A DNA stretch of 39,252 nucleotides. Source: Verrucomicrobiota bacterium (lineage in GTDB: Bacteria; Verrucomicrobiota; Verrucomicrobiia; Limisphaerales; SXTU01). The notes below the pieces were generated by a model. It did not search any database, was not told the DNA's origin, and saw only the letters and a program-made list of their open reading frames with translations. The DNA is taken from positions 1 to 39,252 of the forward strand of contig VHDH01000020.1 of the NCBI GenBank assembly GCA_016871445.1, in the 5' to 3' direction. Both the position numbers and the translations under genes were made by a program. This document shows, in pieces, positions 22,784 through 26,084 of the stretch (positions within the stretch are counted from its first letter, which is position 1; each line of letters starts with the position of its first letter).

Positions 22784-22811
22784 TTGACACCCCCCCTCCC
22801 TCCGCTAACCT
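22784..22811 (+). promoter_or_regulatory. Sigma70-like promoter for the rpmH operon
   Basis: A perfect -35 box TTGACA (22784-22789) is separated by 16 bp of pyrimidine-rich sequence from TAACCT (22806-22811), a weak -10 fitting the pattern TAnnnT. Transcription would start near 22818, giving a leader of about 67 nt before the rpmH ATG. The -10 is only 3/6 to consensus, so the call rests mainly on the -35 and the position. Confidence 0.55.
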
Positions 22812-22822
22812 CCGCCCTCCGC

Positions 22823-22867
22823 TCCAGGCGGAAAACCGCGCGGTGCGCCGCGTCTGGAATCTTTTTT
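22823..22867 (+). promoter_or_regulatory. Candidate rpmH leader RNA / attenuator (three-way junction plus T6)
   Basis: An outer stem TCCAG (22823-22827)/CTGGA (22854-22858) encloses two adjacent perfect tetraloop hairpins, GCGG-AAAA-CCGC (22828-22839) and GCGG-TGCG-CCGC (22840-22851). Three bases later come six T (22862-22867), and rpmH begins at 22885. The first GCGG can instead pair with the second CCGC, giving a single longer stem, so two mutually exclusive folds exist. This resembles an attenuator or an autogenous ribosomal-protein leader. No known L34 leader motif was recognised, and the regulation is inferred. Confidence 0.45.
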
Positions 22868-22884
22868 GAAGCCAAATTTAGCCT

Positions 22885-23022
22885 ATGAAACGCCAGTATC
22901 AGCCCTCCAAGATCCGCCGCCAACGCCAGCATGGCTTTCGTGCCCGCATGGCCACGCGGGGCGGCCGCAAGGTGCTCCGCAACCGCCGCCGCACGGGTCG
23001 CAAGAAGCTTACCCCGGTGTGA
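22885..23022 (+). CDS. rpmH: 50S ribosomal protein L34
   Basis: The 45-residue basic protein starts [18 protein letters not shown] and ends GRKKLTPV, with the L34 pattern of QPS-x-x-RR...HGFR.RM.T..GR.VL..RR..GR. L34 is a late-assembling protein of the large ribosomal subunit. It is the first gene of the conserved rpmH-rnpA-yidD-yidC-khpB order and is preceded by the promoter and structured leader described above. There is no obvious Shine-Dalgarno sequence (TTTAGCCT before the ATG). rnpA starts five bases after the stop. Confidence 0.97.
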
Positions 23023-23026
23023 CGCT

Positions 23027-23398
23027 ATGCCCGCCAGCCCGTCCATGCGGCTGACCCTCGGTGCTGTCCAACGCCTCAAGCAGACGCGCGATTTCGCCCG
23101 CCTCAAGGGCCAAGGCCGCCGCCTTGCGCGCGGCTGCGTCCTGTTAAATTGGGTCGAGCTCCCGGCCTCTGGCGCATCCCGACTCGGCGTAGTAGCGGCC
23201 AAACGCATTGGCAACTCGGTCGTCCGCAGCCGGGCCAAGCGGCTTCTGCGGCAGGCGTTTCGGATTCATCAGCACGACCTGTGTGTGCCCTCGGAAATCG
23301 TCCTCGTGGCCCGCGACTCGATTGCAGGCAAAGCGTTTGCCGAGGTGGAACGCGATTACCTCGCCGCGTTGCGCGTGGCCGGGCTGCTCAAGACATGA
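23027..23398 (+). CDS. rnpA: Ribonuclease P protein component
   Basis: RnpA binds the catalytic RNase P RNA and helps process the 5' ends of precursor tRNAs. The protein (123 residues from the ATG at 23027, or 117 from the ATG at 23045) contains LKQTRDFARLKGQGRR at the N-terminus and the RNR signature in VVAAKRIGNSVVRSRAKRLLRQAFR. It begins five bases after the rpmH stop, so co-transcription is near certain. The start is ambiguous between the two ATGs; the first is nearer rpmH, while the second gives the more usual short N-terminus. The RNase P RNA gene was not seen in the window. Confidence 0.94.
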   Translation: MPASPSMRLTLGAVQRLKQTRDFARLKGQGRRLARGCVLLNWVELPASGASRLGVVAAKRIGNSVVRSRAKRLLRQAFRIHQHDLCVPSEIVLVARDSIAGKAFAEVERDYLAALRVAGLLKT

Positions 23399-23477: not shown

Positions 23478-23846
23478 GTGAACGCCGCCCAACACATCCT
23501 TCTCTTCGTGCTGCGGCTTTACCGCTGGTTTGTCTCGCCCGTGCTAACGACTCTCTTTGGTGCGGCTTGTCGCTTCGAGCCGTCGTGCTCGGTGTATGCG
23601 ACGGAGGCGGTGTGCCGACATGGAGCGGGGCGTGGTGGTTGGCTGGCGGTGAAGCGCCTCGCTCGTTGTCAACCGTGGGGTGGCTGCGGCTGCGATCCCG
23701 TCCCAGAGAAGGTTCCGGATTTTGGATTTTGGGTTTCGGGTGCGATGTCGAAATCAGCCGTGCCTCGGGCGTCATTTCCTACGCCCGCCGCTTCGCTGGC
23801 TCCGGAGACTCGCCCCACTTTTCCGCAGCTTGGCAGCAATCAATAG
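23478..23846 (+). CDS. yidD: Membrane protein insertion efficiency factor YidD, with extended tail
   Basis: YidD is a small inner-membrane-associated protein that aids YidC-dependent insertion. Residues 1-78 match the family: a hydrophobic amphipathic N-terminus ([17 protein letters not shown]), [15 protein letters not shown] with the conserved Cys pair, and [14 protein letters not shown]. The start is GTG at 23478. Family members usually end soon after DPVP, but this one continues about 45 residues (Ser/Pro/Ala-rich, ending QLGSNQ). The first part of that tail is encoded by the low-complexity TTTTGGGTTTCGG-type element at 23715-23740, so the extension is probably not functional. It ends nine bases before yidC. 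Confidence 0.93.
23715..23740 (+). repeat. GGATTTTGG/TTTTGGGTTTCGG low-complexity element, copy 1
   Basis: The segment CCGGATTTTGG (23715-23725) followed at once by TTTTGGGTTTCGG (23727-23739) is AT-richer than its surroundings and lies in the yidD 3' extension. Exact reverse complements of both modules recur at 35984-36035. Similar G/T-rich strings are, to my recollection, scattered between genes in Verrucomicrobiota and Planctomycetota; that needs a genome search. Confidence 0.5.
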
Positions 23847-23855
23847 CCCCCTTTC

Positions 23856-25601
23856 ATGGACCGTAAATCTGTCATCGTCCTCCTCGTTTCGTTCCTGCTC
23901 ATTATCGGCTGGTTCGAGCTGGTCAAGATCATGTATCCGCCGCCGCCGCCCAAGTCGGCCGTCACGAGTACAAACACCGTGGCTGGTGCGACCAACGCCG
24001 CCGGGCCCGCGCTCACCACCCCTGTTCCCGGGGCGACGCAGTGGATGGCGCCGTCGGCCCAGGAGGAGTTGGTGGTATTCGAGACAGCGGACGTGAAATA
24101 TACGTTCTCCTCGCACGGTGGGGGCTTAAAGCTCGCCGAGCTGAAGCGCTTTCCGAAGATCGTCGGCAACCGCAAAGTCACCGATTCCGCGCGCGTGGTG
24201 ACGTTGAACACGAAGGCACCCGTTGCCGCGATGACGTTGTTGGGCGGTGACGCACTGCAGGGTGACGGATTGTTCGCACTAGCCAAGACGGACCAAGGCG
24301 TGCGGGCCGAAAAAATCCTCCCCACCGGCTTACGCATCGTCAAAGAGTTCAAGCCGGGCACGAACTACCTGATGCAAGTCAGCGTGTGGTTGGAAAACAC
24401 CAAGGGCGAGCCGATTGTCGTGCCGGAGCAGCAGTGGGTATTCGCTACCGCCACACCCATCAACCCGTTGGACAAGGGGCAGTTGATGAAAGTGAGTTGG
24501 TTTGGGGACGGCAAGAGCGACGCGGTGGCGGAGACGTATTTTGAGAACGCGACACTCGGCTGCTTCCCCGGCACCAGGCGCACCGAGCACACGGTGGAGG
24601 GAAAGTTCGCGTGGGTCGCAGCGCAAAACCAGTTCTTCACCATGGCCGTTATTCCGAAAGAGTTGGCGGAGAAGGTATACACACGCCGTGTGGCGCTGCC
24701 GGCGCATGACCTGGCAGACGTTCCCAAGGGTGATACTGCTTTCGCCGCGCCGTTCGGCTTTCAGAGCTCGCTCGTTTACCCCGCCAAGGCGCTCCAACCT
24801 GGCGGAACAAACGCCATCCACCGCGATTTCACTCTTTATATCGGCCCGAAAGAATACCAACGGCTTGCTCGACTCGGGAATCAAATGAGCAACGAACTGG
24901 ATCTTATCATGGATTATGGCGGGTTCTTTGGCTTCTTCGCCAAGGCACTGTTGCTCTCCATGAATGGCTTGCACGCCTTCGGCCTTAGCTACGCGTGGTG
25001 CATCATCGCCATCACCATCATCATCAAGTTGCTCTTCTGGCCTCTCACTGCGATTTCCACCCGCTCCATGAAGCGCATGTCCGAATTGCAGCCGCAGATG
25101 AAGGCCATTCAAGAGAAATACAAGGATGACCCAACTAAAATGAACCAAAAGACCATGGAGTTCATGCGTGAGAATAAGGTCAATCCCATGGCCGGTTGCC
25201 TCCCCATGCTTGTGCAATTCCCCGTATTCATTGGCTTTTACACCATGCTGCAAAGTTGCATGGAACTGCGCGGTGAAAGTTTCCTTTGGGCATACGACCT
25301 CTCGCAAGAGGACACCGTCGCCTACCTGCTGGGCTTCCCCATCAACCCGCTACCCATCCTCATGGCCGTGACCATGTTCTATCAGGCCAAGCTCACCCCG
25401 CCCTCCCCTGGCATGGACCCGATGCAGCAGAAAATCATGAAATACATGCCCATGATGTTTGTGGTCATCCTCTATCGATTCAGCGCTGCGCTCACACTTT
25501 ACTGGACCGTCCAAAATCTGCTAACCATCCTGCAAACTAAACTCACCAAGATTCAGGACGACAAGAAAGCCGCCAAGCCGGAGCCAAAGCCGCAGAAATA
25601 A
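23856..25601 (+). CDS. yidC: Membrane protein insertase YidC
   Basis: YidC inserts and folds proteins in the inner membrane, alone or with SecYEG. The 581-residue protein has the gram-negative layout: an N-terminal helix (VIVLLVSFLLIIGWFELVKIM), a large periplasmic beta-super-sandwich domain (about 60-340), then the conserved insertase core. The core has LLLSMNGLHAFGLSYAWCIIAITIIIKLLFWPLT, the cytoplasmic hairpin with QPQMKAIQEKYKDDPTKMNQ, GCLPMLVQFPVFIGFYTML, and further helices toward the C-terminus. The hydrophilic-groove arginine is probably that of STRSMKRM. Its neighbours yidD and khpB are the usual ones. Confidence 0.97.
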   Translation: MDRKSVIVLLVSFLLIIGWFELVKIMYPPPPPKSAVTSTNTVAGATNAAGPALTTPVPGATQWMAPSAQEELVVFETADVKYTFSSHGGGLKLAELKRFPKIVGNRKVTDSARVVTLNTKAPVAAMTLLGGDALQGDGLFALAKTDQGVRAEKILPTGLRIVKEFKPGTNYLMQVSVWLENTKGEPIVVPEQQWVFATATPINPLDKGQLMKVSWFGDGKSDAVAETYFENATLGCFPGTRRTEHTVEGKFAWVAAQNQFFTMAVIPKELAEKVYTRRVALPAHDLADVPKGDTAFAAPFGFQSSLVYPAKALQPGGTNAIHRDFTLYIGPKEYQRLARLGNQMSNELDLIMDYGGFFGFFAKALLLSMNGLHAFGLSYAWCIIAITIIIKLLFWPLTAISTRSMKRMSELQPQMKAIQEKYKDDPTKMNQKTMEFMRENKVNPMAGCLPMLVQFPVFIGFYTMLQSCMELRGESFLWAYDLSQEDTVAYLLGFPINPLPILMAVTMFYQAKLTPPSPGMDPMQQKIMKYMPMMFVVILYRFSAALTLYWTVQNLLTILQTKLTKIQDDKKAAKPEPKPQK

Positions 25602-25622: not shown

Positions 25623-26084
25623 ATGACCACCGAACCTAAAACCATACTAGCCGATTTAATTAACCACCTCGGCTTTACCGAGGCCACCATCACTGAGCAA
25701 AAACTCGACGACGGCGGTCTCTTCCTAGAAGTGCAGTGCGCCGAGTCCAACCGGCTTATCGGCCGGCATGGGCAGACCCTTGGCGACCTGCAATACCTGA
25801 CCAATCGCATCGCCTTTAATCAGGACGATTGCGCCCCACGCATCACTGTTGACGTGGGTGGTTACCGCGCCGCCGCGCGCGAGGCGCTCATCAAGAAAGC
25901 CAAAGACGCGGCTGACAAGGTGCGCAAGTGGGGCGACATCGTCGAACTCGAGCCAATGAACGCTTACGATCGTCGCGTGGTGCATCAAGCCCTGCGAGAA
26001 GACCCCGACATTGAGACCCACAGCGTGGAAGTCGAAGGCACCGACAAGAAGGCGATGCTCTTGCGTCCGAAGCGAAAGGAGTGA
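25623..26084 (+). CDS. khpB: RNA-binding protein KhpB/Jag (KH and R3H domains)
   Basis: This 153-residue protein has a KH domain with the loop GRHGQTLGDLQYL (about residues 47-60) and a C-terminal R3H domain with the R-x-x-x-H motif in MNAYDRRVVHQAL. The Jag_N domain of Firmicutes homologues is absent, as is usual in gram-negative relatives. KhpB binds RNA and has been tied to cell division and elongation in some bacteria; here its role is inferred only. The start is 21 bp after yidC. The stop overlaps a GTG of the next small reading frame. Confidence 0.93.
   Translation: MTTEPKTILADLINHLGFTEATITEQKLDDGGLFLEVQCAESNRLIGRHGQTLGDLQYLTNRIAFNQDDCAPRITVDVGGYRAAAREALIKKAKDAADKVRKWGDIVELEPMNAYDRRVVHQALREDPDIETHSVEVEGTDKKAMLLRPKRKE

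Follow-up and report, generated by a model that had tools for sequence, protein, structure and literature searches.

What kind of RNA, if any, precedes rpmH in this bacterium? The gene is the first in an operon that is found almost universally and encodes L34, RNase P protein, YidD and YidC. In the window, the whole 39,252-nt stretch of Verrucomicrobiota DNA that was analysed, it is followed by rnpA, yidD, yidC and a gene for a KH/R3H protein, and Pfam identifies all five genes (Table 1). The interval 22784-22884, flanked by a minus-strand ORF and rpmH, was read in a preliminary description as an attenuator, with a TTGACA-type promoter, an outer stem enclosing two GCGG/CCGC tetraloop hairpins, a T6 tract 17 bases ahead of the rpmH ATG at 22885, and a switch of GCGG/CCGC partners giving two exclusive folds. 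Each of these sequence elements is indeed present at its position. Taken alone, the interval folds slightly better than its shuffles (z -1.5, with 17 of 200 shuffles as good), which is close enough to the shuffles that relatives are needed to decide what is real.

Table 1. Features of the rpmH upstream region and operon, in window coordinates.
Feature	Position	Strand	Basis or status
-35 element TTGACA	22784..22789	+	order-wide conservation
-10 element TAACCT	22806..22811	+	same alignment as -35
H1, 5'-terminal hairpin UCCGC-UCCAG-GCGGA	22818..22832 (arms 22818-22822/22828-22832)	+	ensemble probability, order-wide covariation
Outer stem TCCAG/CTGGA, 5 bp (preliminary description)	22823-22827/22854-22858	+	not conserved
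First inner hairpin GCGG-AAAA-CCGC (preliminary description)	22828-22831/22836-22839		forms in part of relatives
Second inner hairpin GCGG-TGCG-CCGC (preliminary description)	22840-22843/22848-22851		conserved, extended as H2
H2, second hairpin GCGCGG-UGCG-CCGCGU, genus-level	22838..22853 (arms 22838-22843/22848-22853)	+	98% of cells paired; covariation
T6 tract	22862..22867	+	not conserved in relatives (A1)
TTTAGCCT, directly 5' of start codon	22877..22884	+	near-invariant in genus (A1)
rpmH, ribosomal protein L34	22885..23022	+	PF00468, E 9.8e-20
rnpA, RNase P protein	23027..23398	+	PF00825
yidD	23478..23846	+	PF01809
yidC insertase	23856..25601	+	PF02096, PF14849
KH/R3H-domain RNA-binding protein (Jag/KhpB type)	25623..26084	+	PF01424; PF13083 slightly under cut-off

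Two sets of relatives were used. For the genus set, rpmH upstream DNA was taken from 11 congeneric genomes, the only ones sampled in the family; the 10 distinct sequences form alignment A1. The order set, drawn from what is apparently Limisphaerales/Pedosphaerales (Verrucomicrobiota), comprised about 133-137 promoter-anchored rpmH upstream regions, of which 86 leaders entered the stem tests described below. Five of the loci (L013, L015, L018, L029 and L036) are titled Akkermansia muciniphila or Klebsiella pneumoniae and yet carry a Limisphaerales-like locus; the taxon labels of these metagenome bins look wrong.

A promoter conserved across the order

Nearly all rpmH upstream regions of the order (133-137 compared) carry TTGAC(A/G/T/C), exactly 16 nt and then TANNNT, followed by a short GC-rich stretch and usually by (C/T)TCC. 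Since boxes and spacing are conserved order-wide, the TTGACA-16-TAACCT promoter is genuine by the measure of conservation, as the preliminary description had it. A standard promoter scan misses it, the -10 element being too degenerate. Judging from the usual distance between the -10 element and +1, transcription would start at about 22816-22818, giving the rpmH-rnpA-yidD-yidC mRNA a short structured 5' untranslated leader of ~67 nt. The combination of this promoter with YTCCG occurs a single time in the 3.5-Mb source genome. Among the upstream regions of two other ribosomal-protein genes (L160-L220), those of rpsT carry this TTGACA-16-TANNNT promoter as well and those of rpmB a -35 element of the TTGC type. 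Both have a GC-rich discriminator and YTC-type starts, which suggests a ribosomal-protein promoter type shared in the order.

A 5'-terminal hairpin that appears to be kept across the order

An RNA starting at 22816-22818 is predicted to form two hairpins, H1 and H2, with an ensemble probability of ~0.94; when its start is moved upstream to 22812, H1 falls to 0.60 and H2 to ~0.8. H1 takes the GCGG of the first hairpin in the preliminary description and pairs it with an upstream CCGC (22819-22822), a partner that had been overlooked. Within the genus H1 is mostly invariant, and its unpaired cells come mostly from a one-base misalignment of two sequences (L011 and L012) in which CCGC...GCGG exists. 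Other families have it at the same position but in different letters, for example as CCUCU/AGAGG (L137), CCGUCC/GGACGG (L056), UCCGCUA/UAGCGGA (L142) or UCCCGC/GCGGGA (L158). Across the 86 leaders H1 begins 5-10 nt past the -10 hexamer (the transcription start itself being estimated), its stem has at least 4 bp in 82, its loops measure 3-14 nt and G-U pairs stand at 19%.

The stem search takes the best hairpin in each leader, so most random sequences yield some hairpin too, and only the excess over shuffles counts (observed 13.78, shuffled mean 9.75). For single leaders significance is modest, with 27% at p < 0.05. Pairing was separated from plain motif conservation by a chimera test, in which the 3' parts of leaders were swapped between species. 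The 86 leaders gave a stem score of 13.15 against 11.43 for chimeras (sd 0.28, z 6.1, none of 200 chimeras as good), where z is not a phylogeny-aware probability and the swap breaks relatedness. Thinned to one leader per family (n = 37 families, 20 random draws, two cut points), the set still gave median z values of 3.7 and 4.7, and 1 and 0 of 2000 chimeras reached the observed score. Both the chimera tests and the 70 distinct 5' arms among the 86 leaders point to pairing, rather than sequence, having been kept. Thus, H1 appears to be a hairpin maintained across the order at the very 5' end of the leader while its letters change.

The same test gave z values of -0.5 to 1.4 for rpsT (S20, n = 24) and 0.8 to 2.4 for rpmB (L28, n = 26). 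Since both control sets are smaller than the rpmH set, the H1 signal can be called at least stronger in rpmH, with no claim of exclusivity; and as a similar but weaker signal is seen for rpmB, H1 may be just the most marked instance of a general tendency. Two further genes could not serve as controls: no promoter of the rpmH type was recognised upstream of groES, and too few were recognisable for the HU gene (PF00216), a non-ribosomal control.

A second hairpin at the level of the genus

The second of the two inner hairpins proposed earlier is conserved and extends to 6 bp as H2. Three of its six pairs have changes on both sides among the 10 relatives (C-G/U-A/G-C, C-G/U-A and G-C/C-G), and its loop, GGU(G/A)(A/C)GCC, is conserved in sequence within the genus. 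Together H1 and H2 are paired in 94.5% of genus cells, compared with 36-57% when partners are slid, and RNAalifold run on the genus alignment independently returns both hairpins. A covariance model of H1 plus H2 (R1) gave one strong match, at rpmH and with 50-65 bits, in each of three same-genus genomes. Searched against 78 genomes of the order, its strong matches were confined to rpmH of same-genus genomes; the next-best matches reached at most ~30 bits, and those inspected were not near rpmH.

Downstream of H1, leaders across the order are no more stable than shuffles (mean z -0.19, p 0.2) and share no strong motif. H2 is thus a genus-level feature, and a larger leader conserved across the order was rejected. 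As a separate observation, in five leaders from other families (L131, L134, L114, L108 and L111) H1 is followed by a further stem, either GUGCUC...GGGCAC or GCGC...GCGC, whose changes appear compensatory; these families possibly have a longer rpmH leader of their own.

No Rfam 15 family reached its gathering threshold in the 22784-22884 region or among the relatives, and a sensitive scan in local mode gave none either. On comparative grounds, then, a structured and selected rpmH leader absent from Rfam exists; the earlier proposal of a new ribosomal-protein leader was correct to that extent, but the leader is not an attenuator.

The zone before the start codon

The 25 nt 5' of the ATG are A/U-rich and mostly unpaired (0.65). 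A Shine-Dalgarno-like core is found in only 15 of the 86 leaders (71 are without one), and the rpmH start codon of the source genome also has none; some Verrucomicrobiota have been reported to be Shine-Dalgarno-scarce (PMC10783764). The conserved TTTAGCCT is not a Shine-Dalgarno sequence, and the bases just upstream of it vary freely in the genus. For pairing between TTTAGCCT and the AGGC on the 3' side of H1, these bases have no variation that would inform a test.

By eye, a GTG in the H2 loop of five genus sequences (L003, L005, L007, L008 and L009) opens a 14-codon frame whose TGA overlaps the rpmH ATG. An upstream ORF was rejected: it is in frame in 5 of the 10 genus relatives, and the other five, including the source genome, have a broken frame, a lost GTG or an absent stop.

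How the leader may act

We tentatively favor the view that the region is a promoter with a short leader whose H1 protects the 5' end of the mRNA, after the manner of ompA. A hairpin anchored at the 5' end and tolerant of sequence change, together with an open zone poor in Shine-Dalgarno sequences, fits a 5'-end-protecting stem-loop, and mRNA-stabilising 5' stem-loops are established in other bacteria according to the passage of PMC7509114 that cites Emory 1992. The mRNA would begin at ~22817 and fold at once into H1; in the genus, H2 would come next, and then ~30 nt rich in A/U and largely unpaired, up to the start codon. H1 would hinder attack that starts at an unpaired 5' end, thereby keeping the message stable, and would not close the ribosome landing zone, which lacks a Shine-Dalgarno sequence and would stay open. 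The promoter, H1, H2 and the absence of a conserved terminator rest on comparison, while the protective function of H1 is one that we infer, as a selected hairpin by itself does not prove a protective role.

The ompA/papA-type 5'-terminal stem-loops of Escherichia coli have a hairpin at most a few nt from the 5' end, as H1 would have if the estimated start is right, and like H1 they tolerate sequence change and are followed by an open ribosome region. By comparison, H1 stands before a ribosomal-protein operon of a Shine-Dalgarno-poor lineage, is conserved order-wide, and has a stabilising effect that is only proposed and a transcription start that is estimated. The element is of an ordinary kind in a new place. 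With pairing rather than sequence conserved across an order, H1 is a clear case in which the design of mRNA 5' ends can be put to the test; in this phylum experimental RNA biology is scarce, and so is the use of Shine-Dalgarno sequences.

Alternatively, L34 or another product of the operon (RnpA, the KH/R3H protein) could bind H1/H2 and repress its own operon, which we regard as possible though unlikely. As in known ribosomal-protein leaders (for instance the candidates of PMC7247131), covarying RNA structure is found here in the 5' UTR of a ribosomal-protein gene, directly upstream of it and with a signal above the S20 and L28 controls. In addition, the H2 loop and TTTAGCCT are conserved in sequence within the genus, as a bound protein might need, and it is mainly this conservation that keeps L34 autoregulation under consideration. 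However, unlike a typical protein site, H1 has no loop sequence kept order-wide, its arms and loop lengths varying as described above; there is neither a conserved terminator nor a sequestered ribosome site or start, and the genus model R1 places the element only at rpmH. Our literature search found no leader RNA described for rpmH or L34, and the ribosomal-protein leader candidates of Eckert and Weinberg 2020 (PMC7247131) mention neither rpmH, L34 nor Verrucomicrobia. The broader form of this idea, an undescribed order-wide rpmH leader RNA through which L34 or an operon partner would feed back on the ribosome/RNase P/membrane insertase operon, strikes us as rather doubtful.

The conserved sequence could also act mainly at the level of the promoter, with the GC-rich discriminator and first bases (YTC...) tuning initiation, escape or growth-rate control, and H1 aiding escape or pausing. 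The GC-rich discriminator and following YTC at the rpsT and rpmB promoters are in keeping with this, as is the start of H1 within ~10 nt of the -10 element, but covariation of the 3' arm, which lies 15-30 nt downstream, is left unexplained, and we consider such a role improbable.

The originally proposed attenuator, a three-way-junction terminator with two exclusive folds, is now very hard to maintain. Its letters do permit the fold, and with structures fixed its energy (-17.6 kcal/mol) is near that of H1 plus H2 (-16.9 kcal/mol); some of the relatives can also make its first hairpin (85% of cells). However, the outer stem has an ensemble probability of 0.003 and is paired in 50% of genus cells, its three central pairs forming in no more than 2-4 of the 10 relatives. 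Conservation is likewise lacking for the T6 tract, and a terminator scan was empty where shuffles average 0.8, which leaves the proposed intrinsic terminator unsupported. The check for covariation among rpmH relatives that the preliminary description had called for found two-sided changes in H2 and covarying arms in H1, but none for the GCGG/CCGC switch, where no pair of the alternative fold has changed on both sides. By this comparison, the three-way junction and stop signal are peculiar to the source genome; it is there only that hairpins followed by a T tract recall attenuators with intrinsic terminators, and no competing fold is supported. An attenuator plausible from a single genome thus dissolves when relatives are compared, while another structure formed by these bases holds up.

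Chance GC-rich pairing, or a DNA operator at +1, would suit the insignificant fold of the interval taken alone (z -1.5) but is most improbable given that, over 37 families, the arms covary, G-U pairs occur and the loop differs in length, the latter two features favoring RNA over an operator, in which half-site spacing is fixed.

A hairpin upstream of groES

In most of 30 order genomes (L221-L250, the source genome being L241), a hairpin of the form TTTTCCCGC(C/A)GC-GAGTGC-GGCGGGATTTGATT lies ~50-80 nt upstream of groES, often just downstream of the apparent dnaK 3' end. The 12 loci scanned had no Rfam match. This hairpin may be a processing site, a thermometer or a CIRCE-like operator.
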